Positions 1,998-13,062 of a stretch of DNA of 29,085 bases are shown here, piece by piece. The notes under the pieces are model-generated. The model searched no databases. It saw only the letters and a list, made by a program, of their open reading frames with translations, and was not told the origin of the DNA. A program made the position numbers and the translations under genes. Each line of letters begins with the position of its first letter. Position 1 is the stretch's first letter. Source of the DNA: a virus; IMG/VR virus record IMGVR_UViG_3300032116_001001, positions 1 to 29,085 of that record. One strand, written 5' to 3'.

Positions 1998-2167
1998 TTT
2001 GCCAGCCTTGTGCAGATGCAGGTGAATACAATCGTTTGAACCAAATTAAACTTAGCGAAGCACATCACGAACAATGCGAGGGGTGCGTATGCCAGCACAA
2101 GACTGGTCCAGGTTGGGTTCTAAGAAAAGGTTCAAAGGCTCCGTTGATGCAAACTCAATCCCCATAG
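1994..2167 (+). CDS. Small Cys/His zinc-knuckle protein
   Basis: A GTG at 1994 overlaps the preceding TGA (GTGA). 57 residues with an N-terminal CQPC pair and a second cluster HHEQCEGCVCQHK, giving C-x2-C plus H-x3-C-x2-C-x-C-x-H ligands, enough for one or two zincs. The H..C.GC.CQH block recurs in small actinophage proteins of unknown role. The 3' third overlaps the first primase gene in another frame. Probably a DNA- or protein-binding accessory factor; no function assigned. Confidence 0.65.
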   Translation: MICQPCADAGEYNRLNQIKLSEAHHEQCEGCVCQHKTGPGWVLRKGSKAPLMQTQSP

Positions 2168-2466
2168 CACCGATCATTCGGTACTTTGGTGGTGAGGTAA
2201 GAGAAGGTAAAGACGCTTCAGTGCGCTGTCTGATGCACAATGACAGCAGGCGCTCTGCTTCTATGAATACCTATGACAACCTGTACTTCTGCTTTACCTG
2301 TGGTAAGGGTGGGAACGCAGCTAATATTGTGTGCATACTAGAGAACTTGGAGTTTAACGATGGCCTCAAACGCGCAGTCGAAATTGCTACTGGAAGCGGC
2401 GCAGAGATACGCCCAACAAATAAGTCCAGAGGCAATCGTGGCGCTAGAAGAACGTGGGATATCTGA
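2089..2466 (+). CDS. DNA primase, CHC2 zinc-finger part (split gene)
   Basis: 125 residues from ATG 2089, chosen because GAGGGG at 2078-2083 is 5 nt upstream; an in-frame ATG at 2074 has no ribosome site. The DnaG-type zinc ribbon is explicit: Cys47-x2-His50 (RCLMH) and Cys68-x2-Cys71 (CFTCGKGG), counted from this start, with the usual aromatic strand LYFCFTC between. This domain reads template sites for primer start. The catalytic TOPRIM half is in the next, overlapping gene, so primase is expressed as two polypeptides. Its C-terminus is basic (KSRGNRGARR) and overlaps the next gene by 107 bp. Confidence 0.88.
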   Translation: MPAQDWSRLGSKKRFKGSVDANSIPIAPIIRYFGGEVREGKDASVRCLMHNDSRRSASMNTYDNLYFCFTCGKGGNAANIVCILENLEFNDGLKRAVEIATGSGAEIRPTNKSRGNRGARRTWDI

Positions 2467-3010
2467 AGAGGTAGCTGCGCTTTATTCTTTGGGGACCATC
2501 GTTGAACCAATGAACGGTCACGAGCTCTACGATGGGTGGATATCTATTCCATACATCACTGCCCTTGGTCACTGCGTTGGCTTTAAGTTCCGTAGATTAG
2601 ATGATGGTAAGCCCAAGTACGGTAGCCCTACAGGACAGAAGGCTCATCTCTATAACGTAGTTGATACTACGATCTTAAGTAAGCACATCATTGTATGTGA
2701 AGGTGAGTTAGATACAGTCATAGTCTCCGGTGTCCTTGGTATACCAGCAGTAGGTATCCCTGGAGTGCAAGCGTGGAAGCCACACTTTGCTAAGTTGTTA
2801 TCAGGTTATGACTCTGTTTATATTGTAGGTGACAATGATGTAAAGGAAGATGGCTCCAATCCTGGAGCTGACTTCTCTAAGCGCGTGTCACAGGAAGTAT
2901 TAAACGGGACGATAGTACACTTACCACCCAATATGGACATCAATGACTACTACTTAGCCTATGGAGCAGAAGCTACAAAGACTTTGTTAGTGGGTGAAGG
3001 AAATGGATAA
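2360..3010 (+). CDS. DNA primase, TOPRIM catalytic part (split gene)
   Basis: 216 residues. Its own ATG at 2360 has GGAG at 2348-2351, 8 nt upstream, so internal initiation is well supported. TOPRIM residues: Glu114 and Glu116 in VCEGELDT, then Asp158 and Asp160 in VYIVGDNDVKEDG, with a further acidic DINDYY near 193-198. A DnaG-like N-terminal basic segment precedes (YITALGHCVGFKFRR). This polypeptide makes RNA primers and needs the zinc-finger protein from the preceding gene. Both frames are open through the shared 107 bp, and no single frameshift is needed to make sense of them. Confidence 0.9.
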   Translation: MASNAQSKLLLEAAQRYAQQISPEAIVALEERGISEEVAALYSLGTIVEPMNGHELYDGWISIPYITALGHCVGFKFRRLDDGKPKYGSPTGQKAHLYNVVDTTILSKHIIVCEGELDTVIVSGVLGIPAVGIPGVQAWKPHFAKLLSGYDSVYIVGDNDVKEDGSNPGADFSKRVSQEVLNGTIVHLPPNMDINDYYLAYGAEATKTLLVGEGNG

Positions 3011-3119: not shown

Positions 3120-3406
3120 TAGATCATCTAGCGGTAGTTGGATACCGTGCAGGTGGTGTGTCCACCGAGGACTTAACATCTTTCATTGAATCATTTGCTT
3201 CACTGCGTGCTAACAGAGTCAAGGGCGTAGGCCACGACCAGTACGCTATAGCACAGGGGCAGAAGTTCGAGTCCTTTACTACCTCAGATACCATCAGAGA
3301 ATTGATTGAAGAGCTAGCAGATGCTAGTAATTACATAGACTTCCTCGCTATCAAGCTGCTGAACATACAGCACACTATAGATTTGGTGCTACCTGACTGT
3401 GACTGA
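3098..3406 (+). CDS. MazG-like all-alpha NTP pyrophosphohydrolase candidate
   Basis: 102 residues from ATG 3098, with AAGGAG at 3081-3086. An in-frame start at 3017 would only read the preceding gene out of frame. The middle has GHDQYAIAQGQKFESFT followed by the acidic helix ELIEELADASNYIDFLAIKLL, which carries the EExxD-type metal-binding spacing of MazG/dUTPase-like all-alpha pyrophosphatases. That family clears non-canonical or excess nucleotides in phage infection. The second acidic helix (ExxD) is not clearly present, so the catalytic role is tentative; it could also be a non-enzymatic helical protein. Confidence 0.55.
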   Translation: MSNSNPLVDHLAVVGYRAGGVSTEDLTSFIESFASLRANRVKGVGHDQYAIAQGQKFESFTTSDTIRELIEELADASNYIDFLAIKLLNIQHTIDLVLPDCD

Positions 3407-4031
3407 ACTGCACAAGAACATCTATGACATCGTATACACCGTAGCGCAGACCACTTACCGCAGGTTTGGTAACTTTGTAGAGCGTGATGATATCAAGCAG
3501 GAGTGTGTCAAGTGGGCGCTTACTCGCGTTGATTATATCAACGAGCAGTTATCAGAGCCGGAAACTAAGAAGCGCCAGCATAACGAGCACCGTGTAGCGT
3601 GGCAGATGCTGCGTGTAGCAGAGCGATACGCACGCAAGGAGAAGGCAGTCAAGTCTGGCTATCACATCACAGATGAGGCCTACTACGAGGGAGCTACGCT
3701 CACTCAGCTGTTGCCCTTCGTCATTGCATCAGTACTCGACGGTACTGTACTAGAGCAGGCACAAGAGATGATCCGTGACGGTCAACCTAAAGGCTCATCA
3801 TCTCCAGCAGAGGGTGGCAACCTGCTTGCAGTACTCATTGATATCAAGAAGGCTTACCTTGAGTTAGATGTTAACTCACAGCAGGTACTTACCCTGCGCT
3901 ATCACGAGAACTTTACCTTAGCTCAGATAGGTGGCGTACTTGGTTGTGCTACCAGTACAGCAGAGCGCAGGTGCTTAGGTGCAGTGCGTAAGCTACAAGA
4001 TGAACTCGGTGGGATAAGTCCATACCGGTGA
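3399..4031 (+). CDS. Sigma-70-like RNA polymerase sigma factor
   Basis: 210 residues from a GTG that overlaps the previous stop. The C-terminal part, about 145-205, is a region-4-like domain: a helix (DIKKAYLELDVNSQQVLTLRY), then the turn TLAQIGGVLGCATSTAERR as recognition helix, then AVRKLQDEL. The N-terminal part has a region-2-like stretch (DDIKQECVKWAL). The linker is long (about 85-140) and contains a flexible PKGSSSPAEGG. It most resembles an ECF-size factor. With WhiB in the same operon it may redirect host polymerase to phage promoters; region 2 is weak, so a DNA-binding role without full sigma activity is possible. Confidence 0.75.
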   Translation: MTELHKNIYDIVYTVAQTTYRRFGNFVERDDIKQECVKWALTRVDYINEQLSEPETKKRQHNEHRVAWQMLRVAERYARKEKAVKSGYHITDEAYYEGATLTQLLPFVIASVLDGTVLEQAQEMIRDGQPKGSSSPAEGGNLLAVLIDIKKAYLELDVNSQQVLTLRYHENFTLAQIGGVLGCATSTAERRCLGAVRKLQDELGGISPYR

Positions 4032-10088: not shown

Positions 10089-10307
10089 TTATCTTTCTGA
10101 CTTAATCTGATCGTATAAATCGCCAAGTTGGCTTTGAACAAGTTGCTCGGTCACGCTTTCCAAAATGCGGTGACGGTTGAAACTGAGAAGCCCATTTGAA
10201 TCTTTGGCTTCTCTTAATGCGATTGATTGCTGATTGTGCAGAAACATCAAGAGCGTTTCTAAATCACGATCAGAGAGTTCGATTACGATTTTTTTACGAT
10301 CGTTCAT
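10089..10307 (-). CDS. Hypothetical 72-residue protein, first gene of the leftward operon
   Basis: ATG 10307, with AGAGGC upstream. MNDRKKIVIELSDRDLETLLMFLHNQQS followed by two helices (REAKDSN, ILESVTEQLVQSQLGDLYDQIK). The product is small, acidic and strand-helix-helix; the first strand with SDRDLETLL resembles ribbon-helix-helix or small regulator starts, but this is only a resemblance. It is the first gene after the control region. Confidence 0.75.
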   Translation of the reverse strand: MNDRKKIVIELSDRDLETLLMFLHNQQSIALREAKDSNGLLSFNRHRILESVTEQLVQSQLGDLYDQIKSER

Positions 10308-10321
10308 TGTTGCCTCTTTTC

Positions 10322-10338
10322 TAGTGGCTTTTCCACTA
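10322..10338 (-). promoter_or_regulatory. Leader hairpin before the first leftward gene
   Basis: TAGTGG (10322-10327) pairs perfectly with CCACTA (10333-10338) around a 5-nt loop, 15 bp upstream of the first leftward gene start at 10307. It may protect the message 5' end or affect access to the ribosome site AGAGGC. Confidence 0.4.
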
Positions 10339-10401
10339 AGAGAAAAGTACCGGACTCTGCCCTATATCGGAAGCATTTAAGAGAAAAATCTTTATAACAG
10401 T

Positions 10402-10461
10402 TTGGTAACGGAATGCTGTGAACTTTCTGAGCTTTAAGTTACCAGCGAGTATTGTTACCAG
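10402..10461. promoter_or_regulatory. Three GTTACCA-type repeats (operator or iteron candidate)
   Basis: GTTACCAG occurs at 10438-10445 and 10454-10461 (16 bp apart), and a reverse copy TTGGTAAC at 10402-10409. The units flank TATAAA-like hexamers for leftward transcription (minus strand at 10391-10396 and 10488-10493). This is a possible site for a phage regulator; three copies only, so tentative. Confidence 0.4.
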
Positions 10462-10487
10462 GTCTGGCTACTCAGTAACTTACGAGC

Positions 10488-10517
10488 TTTATACGATCGT
10501 CGAGTCTGATCGATTAA
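10488..10517 (-). promoter_or_regulatory. Weak candidate promoter for the leftward operon
   Basis: On the minus strand, TATAAA (10493-10488) follows TTAATC (10517-10512) at 18-bp spacing. The first LexA-like dyad lies just upstream of the -35 position. The -35 hexamer is poor, and a second TATAAA at 10396-10391 is an alternative, so the start site is uncertain. Confidence 0.25.
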
Positions 10518-10521
10518 CTGC

Positions 10522-10535
10522 CGAACACCTGTTCG
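10522..10535. promoter_or_regulatory. LexA/SOS-box-like dyad 1
   Basis: CGAAC-ACCT-GTTCG is a perfect dyad matching the actinobacterial LexA core (TCGAAC-N4-GTTCGA), extended outward by GCCG/CGGC. It lies 215 bp upstream of the leftward operon. Host LexA could repress the early genes until DNA damage; a phage repressor of similar specificity is an alternative. Confidence 0.6.
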
Positions 10536-10557
10536 ACGGCTAGAGATATTGACGGGG

Positions 10558-10571
10558 CGAACACTTGTTCG
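10558..10571. promoter_or_regulatory. LexA/SOS-box-like dyad 2
   Basis: CGAAC-ACTT-GTTCG, again a perfect core dyad, exactly 36 bp from dyad 1. A TTGACG -35-like hexamer (10549-10554, plus strand) adjoins it, but no good -10 follows at normal spacing. Two such sites close together make chance unlikely. Confidence 0.6.
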
Positions 10572-10614
10572 GGTCTGCCGGATACAGAGAAAGCCCTGCG
10601 ATTCTTTCCAATAC

Positions 10615-10659
10615 TTATCCACAGCCTTGTCCACAGCCTGTGCATAACCCTGTGGACAG
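10615..10659. other. Array of four DnaA-box-like 9-mers at 12-bp spacing (origin candidate)
   Basis: TTATCCACA (10615-10623) and TTGTCCACA (10627-10635) on the plus strand, then TGTGCATAA (10639-10647) and TGTGGACAG (10651-10659), which read TTATGCACA and CTGTCCACA on the other strand. Two match TTATNCACA perfectly and one matches the actinobacterial TTGTCCACA form. Each 9-mer is followed by a 3-bp spacer (GCC, GCC, CCC), so all starts are 12 bp apart. The outer part also forms a 9-bp inverted repeat. This suggests host DnaA binding and a replication origin, with an A/T-rich stretch about 80 bp to the right. Confidence 0.7.
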
Positions 10660-10799
10660 CTCACAGCGCGGTCGGGCGTGTCGCTGACGGTGACCCCCCC
10701 TTGTTTAATGCCGGAGTGGGTAGTGTTATGTACCCTACAAAAAAATATTTGCTAAAGTGAAATCCCCGTAATATGGCTCTGACCTGCGGTTATGTACTG

Positions 10800-10815
10800 T
10801 GTGACTAACGTCACA
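10800..10815. promoter_or_regulatory. CRP/GlxR-type binding site
   Basis: TGTGA-CTAACG-TCACA matches TGTGA-N6-TCACA, the CRP-family site used by actinobacterial GlxR/Crp proteins, with an additional C/G pair inside. Its centre is about 60 bp upstream of the start predicted from the promoter at 10831-10860, the classical class I activator position. Confidence 0.55.
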
Positions 10816-10830
10816 TTATCAAAACGGGAA

Positions 10831-10860
10831 TTGGTCTAAATTTCCTGCCTTATATATAGT
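10831..10860 (+). promoter_or_regulatory. Candidate late promoter for the packaging/structural operon
   Basis: TTGGTC (10831-10836), 18-bp spacer, TATAGT (10855-10860). Both hexamers fit a sigma-70-type promoter reasonably. Transcription would begin near 10867, giving a structured leader of about 330 nt before the terminase start. The CRP-like site just upstream supports regulated activity. Confidence 0.5.
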
Positions 10861-10900
10861 AGGGAGTAAAGCGGGAGATAGTCCGGTTTACGAGCTGTAC

Positions 10901-11176
10901 GCTACGGGTGAAACCCTTCGCGTAGCCCCCTAGGGCGAAGCGATCAGTACCACTAAATACGGGATAATTCTATTCAGTATTGAATCTCATTATGTGAGAC
11001 AATCAGCTTGGTATAAAACTTATACTGGGTACATTAGAAATGTACCTGTAGATGAATCTTCATAACCTACTGGGTAGGTTCTTAAATTCATCCTCAACTT
11101 GGTATAAGGAATCTGTGATTCCGGCCCGTCTATTCCGGCGGATGAACACAGTTCATCTAGCAGACGCTACCGCGTC
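10901..11176 (+). ncRNA. Hairpin-rich structured leader RNA upstream of terminase
   Basis: Successive stem-loops, mostly perfect with 3-nt loops. 10906-10916: 4 bp, loop GAA. 10985-10999: 5 bp. 11011-11025: 6 bp, loop AAC. 11028-11046: 8 bp, loop AGA. 11064-11080: 7 bp, loop TGG, inside an outer 7-bp stem 11051-11057/11086-11092. 11108-11122: 6 bp, loop TGT. 11141-11157: 7 bp, loop ACA. 11163-11176: 5 bp, loop TACC. Two stems around 10901-10940 are mutually exclusive (GCTACG/CGTAGC against CTTCGC/GCGAAG). CTTGGTATAA repeats at 11007-11016 and 11098-11107. The 3' end reaches 14 bp from the ribosome site AGGAG. Arms differ in sequence, so this is structure rather than a repeat array. It may be a leader, a packaging-related RNA, or a DNA packaging site. 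Confidence 0.6.
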
Positions 11177-11199
11177 AGCCCTTTATTTTAGGAGATTAC

Positions 11200-13062
11200 G
11201 TGGCTGATAACTCAGCAGATATAGCCAAGCGTATTATCCTTGGATGTGTAGCAGAAGGTATGACTATCGATGCGGCCTGTGGCAGCGCCGGTAAGTCCAT
11301 CAAGACCTACGAGTACTACCGTCGCACCGATAAGGTATTTGCAGACAAGATAGATCGAACCCGCCTTGGTTTAAAGGAGAAGTCCTTTGCATCCGGCGAC
11401 GTTCACGATATCGACTTCGTGGAGTTCCGCCAGAAGTTTCTGCACAGCCAGACCTTCCCGCACCAGAAGAACCTCATAGATGTTATCGAAGGCCGTGAAC
11501 CTTCGTGGTTCCACCCCAGTATGAAATATGAGCCAGGACTTGCCTCAAACCGCGTCCTGATAAATATTCCGCCAAACCACGCCAAGTCGATTACGGTCAC
11601 CGTCGACTACGTTACCTGGCAGGTAGCACGTAACCCTAACTTCCGAGTACTGATAGTCTCACAGACACAGCAACTTGCAGCAGACTTTCTCTACGCCATC
11701 AAGCAGCGACTAACGCATCCGATGTATGCAGAACTCCAGAGCGCTTATGCAGCTGGCGTAGGGTTTAACTCTAAGACGGCCTCTTGGCAGGCAACCCGCG
11801 TCACCTTCGGTGATGAACTTCGTGAGTCTTCCGAAAAAGACCCGAACATTGAAGCCGTCGGTATTGGCGGTCAGATTTACGGTAAGCGTGCCGATATGAT
11901 TATTGTCGATGACGCCGTTACTCTCAAGAACGCTAATGAGTTTGAGAAGCAAATCCGGTGGTTAACCCAAGACGTGCGTTCCCGTCTTAACCCTACCGGT
12001 AAGTTAATTATTATTGGTACACGAGTAGCCTCGGTAGACCTATACCGCGAACTTCGCTCTGAGGATAGATACCCAGGCGGCCTTGTCCCTTGGAAGTATC
12101 TAGCGATGCCAGCCCTGTTAGACGCAGATGAAGACCCCGACAAGTGGGTTACTCTTTGGCCCGCCTCAGATGCACCATTTGATGGACAGGCAGAATCTGA
12201 TAAGAACGATGACGGTCTATACCCACGTTGGTCTGGTCGTAACCTTTACAACGAACGTCAAGCGATGGATGCTAGTACCTGGGCTTTGGTCTACCAGCAG
12301 CAGGATGTATCTGAGAACGCTGCCTTTGACCCCGTATGTGTAAAAGGCTCCATTGATGGAATGCGTAAGGCGGGCAACTTAGTTGCAGGCCACCCAGGAC
12401 ATCCACGAGACTTAAACGGCTTTACCTACATCTGTGGGCTAGACCCTGCGATGATTGGCGATACCGCAGCTATCTGTTACGCCATTGATAGATCAACGAG
12501 CAAGAGGTACATAGTAGATGCTATCAAGATTAGCCGTCCGTCTCCAGCCGATATACGTAATCTTATTTTTGATTGGACATCCCTATACTCACCGTCCGAA
12601 TGGATTGTCGAAAAGAACGCCTTCCAATCCTTCTTAACGCAGGACGAAGGCATCCGTATGCACCTAGCATCACGCGGCGTGCAGTTTAAGGAACACCATA
12701 CCGGCTCTAATAAATGGGATGCCGGTTTCGGTGTGGCATCTATGTCTACCCTCTTTGGTACTAAGCAGTTTGATGGTAAGCACCATAGAGATAACCTGAT
12801 ACACCTTCCATCAGATCAGACCGAGAACATTAAGGCTCTGATAGAGCAGTTGATTACCTGGACTCCAACGACTAAGGGTAAGACCGATATGGTGATGGCA
12901 CTATGGTTCTGTGAAATCCGAGCACGTGAGATGCTCAACTACGGCAAGTATGCCACCCACCATATGAAAAACCCTTTCCTCTCTCGTCAAGAGATAGGCA
13001 AAAGAACAGTGATTAACCTAGAAGAAGCATTCGCAGAGCAAAACAAAATCAGAGTCATATAG
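11200..13062 (+). CDS. terL: Terminase large subunit (DNA-packaging ATPase/nuclease)
   Basis: 620 residues from GTG 11200, with AGGAG 7 nt upstream. Variant Walker A near 121-131 (NIPPNHAKS), Walker B near 232-238 (DMIIVDDA). The RNase-H-like nuclease follows: Asp415 in CGLDPAMIGDTAA, an acidic WIVEKNAF near 466-473, and Asp563 in KGKTDMVMA. It drives DNA into the prohead and cuts the concatemer. The N-terminal 60 residues (IAKRIILGCVAEGMTIDAACGSAGKSIKTYEYYRR) look like a helix-turn-helix, as in a small terminase; no separate small-terminase gene is seen beside it. First gene of the late operon. Confidence 0.95.
   Translation: MADNSADIAKRIILGCVAEGMTIDAACGSAGKSIKTYEYYRRTDKVFADKIDRTRLGLKEKSFASGDVHDIDFVEFRQKFLHSQTFPHQKNLIDVIEGREPSWFHPSMKYEPGLASNRVLINIPPNHAKSITVTVDYVTWQVARNPNFRVLIVSQTQQLAADFLYAIKQRLTHPMYAELQSAYAAGVGFNSKTASWQATRVTFGDELRESSEKDPNIEAVGIGGQIYGKRADMIIVDDAVTLKNANEFEKQIRWLTQDVRSRLNPTGKLIIIGTRVASVDLYRELRSEDRYPGGLVPWKYLAMPALLDADEDPDKWVTLWPASDAPFDGQAESDKNDDGLYPRWSGRNLYNERQAMDASTWALVYQQQDVSENAAFDPVCVKGSIDGMRKAGNLVAGHPGHPRDLNGFTYICGLDPAMIGDTAAICYAIDRSTSKRYIVDAIKISRPSPADIRNLIFDWTSLYSPSEWIVEKNAFQSFLTQDEGIRMHLASRGVQFKEHHTGSNKWDAGFGVASMSTLFGTKQFDGKHHRDNLIHLPSDQTENIKALIEQLITWTPTTKGKTDMVMALWFCEIRAREMLNYGKYATHHMKNPFLSRQEIGKRTVINLEEAFAEQNKIRVI

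Follow-up and report, generated by a model that had tools for sequence, protein, structure and literature searches.

A palindrome of the CRP/GlxR type that precedes the late genes of the virus studied here, apparently one of freshwater actinobacteria, probably belongs to a late promoter driven jointly by the host Crp/GlxR regulator and a phage sigma-like factor, a reading to which we assign a probability of about 60% from sequence comparison. The window, that is, the whole stretch of DNA analysed, is a virus record of 29,085 bases that encodes a WhiB protein (PF02467), a sigma-70-like protein and replication genes, and its rightward, late block opens with the gene of the large terminase, terL (11200-13062, plus strand). 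The palindrome, TGTGACTAACGTCACA (10800-10815, no strand assigned), lies in the gap between the divergent gene blocks (10308-11199; the closest leftward gene begins at 10307), and a further element, CTGACCTGCGGTTATG (10779-10794, plus strand), adjoins it on the left, is kept in variants, and is inverted in a group of relatives typified by L053 and L055. The exact match to TGTGA-N6-TCACA reported by the first-pass annotation is present at these positions, and the site also matches the strong form of the S. coelicolor Crp consensus, GTG(N)6GNCAC; this motif and GTG(N)8CAC are given for GlxR and actinobacterial Crp in an excerpt of PMC10033298. A scan of all 29,085 bases returned the TGTGACTAACGTCACA site as the sole match with up to one mismatch, against a chance mean of 1.03 such matches per dinucleotide-shuffled window and of 0.025 exact matches (200 single-base shuffles). 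Since about one near-match is expected by chance at 29 kb, a near-match in the window alone proves little; once the relatives are compared, the palindrome is, judged by their sequences, real and above chance.

The same gap carries two LexA-type boxes 36 bp apart, CGAACACCTGTTCG (10522-10535) and CGAACACTTGTTCG (10558-10571), with similar pairs in L003, L005 and L038 and single boxes in L040 and L080, which suggests that the leftward genes are tied to the SOS response. It also carries a cluster of DnaA-box-like repeats at 10614-10658 (TTATCCACA and inverted partners), to which short stretches in Microbacterium, Arthrobacter and Streptomyces phages are similar with weak E-values. No Rfam match of credible quality was found in the window.

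The comparison drew on at least 80 loci of IMG/VR that carry relatives of the terL gene, which together with the window make 81 sequences and 644,525 bases, overlaps included. Nine of the 81 had no anchor upstream of terL: seven with only 0-360 nt upstream (L004, L017, L020, L044, L052, L060 and L076), L008, where the module is inverted, and L050, which has a variant -10 element and an exact site; all nine stand outside the 70 sequences counted below. With L006 and L062 left out for having fewer than 70 nt before the anchor, 70 testable sequences (69 relatives and the window) remained, and all 70 had the palindrome with two mismatches or fewer (35 exact, 28 with one and 7 with two). The N6 spacer took 27 forms among these 70 sequences and the arms were near invariant. 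In a position profile built from the 36 distinct of 40 sequences of a single spacing class, G2, T3, G4, C13, A14 and C15 of the site (1-based) showed no variation, the remaining arm positions showed next to none, and the five positions on each side of the site dropped to 0.04-0.67 bits. That is, the arms and not the spacer are held constant, as selection on the arms of a Crp/GlxR site would have it. One spacer position was A in 36/36 sequences, and the GlxR consensus likewise has A there. Across the 81 sequences there were 39 exact sites, every one inside the promoter module (38 assigned by a script rule and the one in L050 by eye). A pattern scan of IMG/VR for the site together with CCTTATATATAGTA gave at least 119 stretches, with identical spacing in nearly all those listed; it was kept out of all rates as it selects for the motif itself.

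The position of the site relative to the predicted start is a further line of evidence. The -10 element, TATAGT within TATATATAGT (10855-10860, plus strand), belongs to a nearly invariant TA(T/C)AGT, and taking the start as 12 nt past the first base of that element places it near 10867 and the centre of the site at -59.5, so that the earlier figure of about 60 bp is correct. Class I CRP-activated promoters of the E. coli lac type have a CRP dimer near -61.5, an AT-rich gap and a -10 element. The centres in the 70 testable sequences fell at -59.5 (41), -60.5 (15), -72.5 (7), -74.5 (6) and -75.5 (1), all seven sequences at -72.5 bearing two mismatches, and a small extra group (L146, L161, L165 and L169) has the site 5 bp nearer. 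Strict class I geometry, as the first-pass annotation had it, thus finds partial support: it agrees with -59.5 or -60.5 in 56/70 sequences, measured from the inferred start, and not with the sites at -74.5/-75.5 or 5 bp nearer, which are off whole helical turns; the -72.5 group, also outside the main position, fits a whole turn and, like the main group, a class I position (near -61.5, or -72.5 and so forth). An earlier view of ours that all alternative spacings are half-turn shifts was withdrawn, the computed centre of -72.5 being in phase with the positions in Streptomyces phages (below). The near-fixed distance from site to predicted start suggests that late viral expression may be wired to a host control system.

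Between the site and the -10 element, the window has an A-tract, AAAA (10821-10824, plus strand; A in 34, 36, 36 and 33 of 36 sequences), which may serve as a contact for the C-terminal domain of the RNA polymerase alpha subunit, and then an inverted repeat whose 8-bp arms enclose 7 nt of loop, its left arm CGGGAATT at 10825-10832 (about -42 to -35) and its right arm ATTTCCTG at 10840-10847 (about -27 to -20), both on the plus strand. The hexamer TTGGTC, previously taken as the -35 element, does lie at 10831-10836 with an 18-bp spacer to TATAGT. As a -35 element it fails: its six positions agree in 3, 31, 28, 10, 7 and 14 of 36 relatives, and it runs from the inner end of the left arm into the loop of the conserved repeat. 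A sigma-70 promoter scan of 10200-11300 did not report TTGGTC and gave one chance-level sigma-70-like site on the opposite strand, and the profile of the relatives lacks the conserved -35 hexamer of a host sigma-A promoter (TTGACA/TATAAT).

This arrangement bears on an alternative that we regard as unlikely but worth keeping in view, namely that Crp/GlxR acts as a repressor at the palindrome and, pending a change of conditions, either holds back late transcription or shuts off an upstream promoter (the CTGACC..TTATATA element). Three promoters of phage T1 (pir, dam and recE) are repressed by cAMP-CRP (an excerpt of PMC6737242), the loose spacing described above is easier to reconcile with repression than with activation, and the upstream element resembles a stretch beside TTTTATATATATTAG in the cultured Planktophila phages E7 and F5; were it a promoter, its start would fall inside the site. 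A preferred position near -60, the intervening A-tract and the absent -35 element suit activation better. Phages E7 and F5 (OX376640 and OX376641, identified as such in an excerpt of PMC10202952) also limit the class I geometry: their terL upstream regions hold exact sites, one in E7 and two in F5, about 400-480 nt upstream of the likely -10 element (TTTTATATATATTAG, with GCCCTG..CAGGGC adjoining), i.e., distant from the likely promoter. By portal identity to the window these two phages (54%) are closer than the Streptomyces phages (43-45%), and either the arrangement was lost there or it arose twice; their spacing speaks against a universal rule.

As regards a protein that could bind the site, a cNMP-binding domain (PF00027) was found in none of the 18 phage records tested, a set that includes several fragments. 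A rhodopsin pattern scan, which served only to find genomes of host type, led to Planktophila versatilis, and a PF00027 protein is encoded in 50/61 genomes of the Planktophila family, the likely host family but maybe not that of the window, with genome completeness not given. The CRP homologue of P. versatilis has 227 residues, finds its best matches in M. tuberculosis CRP structures, and aligns with M. tuberculosis CRP over 223 residues with an almost identical recognition helix. Late-gene control by CRP/GlxR, as first proposed, is thus favored by a site near the class I position, upstream of terL and conserved over wide divergence, and by the presence, in the likely host family, of a close CRP homologue, while its TTGGTC component falls away. 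A search of the genome contigs for terL found no relative, and hosts could therefore not be read from prophages.

We consider it improbable that something other than Crp/GlxR occupies the palindrome, be it some other host regulator or a phage protein not recognised as such. Many proteins of these phages are without identification, and exact sites are scarce in genomes of the host family; against this, the arms and spacing fit actinobacterial Crp/GlxR, the recognition helix of the host-family CRP is nearly that of M. tuberculosis, and the CRP domain is missing from 18/18 phage records. As to the host genomes themselves, exact TGTGAN6TCACA occurs in 2/61 Planktophila-family genomes (G013-G073) versus 12/61 for the reversed control, and it is possible that the host avoids perfect sites. 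P. versatilis has no exact site, and 400 kb of its 1.33-Mb genome showed no clear intergenic excess (2 vs. 1 when one mismatch was allowed, 12 vs. 9 when two were). Use of this motif by the host protein itself is therefore putative, and the scarcity of sites counts against the joint reading.

The candidate for the phage partner is the sigma-70-like protein encoded at 3399-4031 (plus strand), predicted from domain matches and covariation to be the reader of the inverted repeat. It has a sub-threshold match to TIGR02937 over residues 6-203 (E 2.1e-9, 37.2 bits against a cut-off of 42.9) and a match to Pfam sigma-70 region 4 above the cut-off. Of 90 distinct segments, among them a few stray matches from outside the module, 79 have the best arms of the repeat at one common offset. 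We tabulated recognition helices for 41 records (a sigma-like gene in 14/15 and 26/45 records, plus the window; L134 and L121 are partial), with the arms for L040 taken from the repeat segments and those for L023 and L028 from the comparison of the loci. Thirty-four helices were C-A-x-S-T (A-type) and seven had H replacing A (H-type). In all 34 A-type cases the left arms are CGGGAAAT, CGAGAAAT, CAGGAAAT or minor variants of these, and the right arms end CCTG, TCTG, ACTG or CCCG; right arms end AGCG, CGCG or CTCG in all seven H-type cases, in which HF pairs with CGCT, HL with CGCA, HH with CGCG and HR with GAG. Helix type thus matches the repeat arms in 41/41 records with no crossing. Because the H type forms one clade in the sigma tree (first 150 residues), the A/H split is a single event and most of the agreement could be shared descent. 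Within the H clade, L034 and L041 both have the HH form (HHST helix) with CGCG arms on separate supported branches. Overall, these sequence comparisons suggest that the repeat is read by the sigma-like protein; for the H type, this is based on 7 sequences. An RNA hairpin reading of the repeat was set aside as less likely, with A-C mismatches between the arms in several phages and arms that follow the protein helix.

Downstream, the predicted late transcript would begin with a 5' leader (10867-11199, plus strand; start placed from the -10 element). The segment 10862-11199 folds better than its shuffles (z -4.2), leader length is 220-340 nt in most relatives, and 25 aligned leaders, hand-picked out of 72 with an anchor, end in AGGAG or similar ahead of terL. 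Between the -10 element and terL, the window and its relatives share blocks of strong conservation, GCGAGGCCCCTAGGCCGAG among them. No Rfam family matched the leaders searched at E up to 1, and a consensus leader structure was dropped with only 7 pairs kept across two dissimilar subtypes. A type II hammerhead ribozyme over the Rfam threshold lies about 1.1 kb upstream of terL in L036 (3808-3867, minus strand), with sub-threshold ones in L053 and L066 and none in the window.

We consider it very improbable that the module, palindrome included, is not a promoter but a DNA element that serves packaging, replication or recombination. Such an element would be at home close to terL in the gap between divergent blocks, where DnaA-box-like repeats and LexA-type boxes also lie, and the module is inverted at one contig end (L008); set against this are the TATATATAGT -10 element, a leader ending AGGAG-like before terL, the agreement between repeat and sigma-like protein, and the appearance of L008 as an assembly fold-back. 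The idea of an invertible promoter, which L008 would illustrate by reading away from terL, was dropped for the same reason: the contig turns back on itself within the leader and stops at that point, likely an assembly fault.

Searches with the portal and terL proteins led further out, to Streptomyces phages, mostly classed in Beephvirinae, with 42% terL and 43-45% portal identity to the window. We sampled 14 of 29 records, some of which are near-copies; because records within one genus are near-copies, the independent Streptomyces cases are few. Two sites lie upstream of terL in 14/14 records: a near site with one mismatch in each, centered at -60.5 (2), -61.5 (9) or -62.5 (3), and a far site at -107.5 (2), -116.5 (6) or -117.5 (6). 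Between the site and TATATATA these phages carry a differing repeat (CCTGTCC..GGACRGG-like in several), and DnaB, primase, the sigma-like protein, terL, portal and capsid have counterparts in all three Streptomyces phages compared. The primase of the window (2074-3010) is split over two overlapping frames, one for the zinc ribbon and one for Toprim, a layout shared with Streptomyces phages Immanuel3 and Manuel. A chance palindrome kept by shared ancestry alone is hardly credible: the at least 80 terL loci are indeed related (terL 86-100% identical), yet flanks and spacer vary freely around constant arms and the site is kept in Streptomyces phages at 42% terL identity. One phage, Abafar, is virulent on S. 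albidoflavus according to part of PMC11536984, the main text of which mentions no promoter, sigma factor or Crp. The first-pass annotation had suggested that the late genes may respond to the nutritional (cAMP-type) state of the host; streptomycetes are without Crp-cAMP-dependent catabolite repression (an excerpt of PMC10033298), and for this reason such a link is not to be assumed.

The joint reading, in which host Crp/GlxR and the phage sigma-like factor drive the late promoter together, would work as follows. From left to right the module would consist of the Crp/GlxR dimer on its predicted site, centered near -60, the A-tract, the repeat, which takes the position of a -35 hexamer (about -42 to -20), the TATATATAGT -10 element, the leader and terL. 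Host Crp bound upstream would contact the polymerase, perhaps via the alpha C-terminal domain on the A-tract, and help to recruit or stabilise it; the phage sigma-like protein would most likely contact the repeat and help to open TATATATAGT, and the late genes would be turned on when both factors are present, giving a transcript with the leader first and then terL. A bolder version, to which we give a little less than even odds, is that both keys are needed, that helix and repeat co-evolve across a large group of freshwater actinophages, and that the Crp key is common to the Streptomyces phages. If true, host state would have a concrete route for timing the late genes in a freshwater virus group, and the agreement between repeat and helix would offer a handle on promoter choice by phage sigma-like proteins. 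With the cultured Streptomyces phages, which share the arrangement, the reading can be tested now.

Our search of the open-access literature (subscription papers and preprints lay outside its scope) turned up no paper that deals with Crp/GlxR at the late promoters of actinophages, and the nearest known systems each share some elements of the model. The regulons of GlxR and actinobacterial Crp, as described in part of PMC10033298, have motifs in common with the phage site, with host genes as targets there and a phage promoter here. The lac-type class I promoters of E. coli are alike in the upstream CRP position, the AT-rich gap and the -10 element; the phages differ in having an inverted repeat, no conserved -35 hexamer, some other spacings and an actinobacterial Crp. 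Host CRP acts on phage promoters in T1 (pir, dam and recE; excerpt of PMC6737242), as proposed here, but by repression, in E. coli and at other genes, as opposed to late genes, actinobacteria and, probably, activation. At the Pm promoter of phage Mu, an inverted repeat bound by the phage activator Mor replaces the -35 element, with the repeat centered at -43.5 versus about -31 here, where the candidate reader is sigma-like; the abstract of that paper (PMC4390567) names no CRP site. Finally, the late promoter P3 of phage GIL01 (part of PMC6182141) combines host LexA with a phage DNA-binding protein that sits over the -35 region, i.e., a host and a phage protein together, the host protein there being of the LexA family and repressing.
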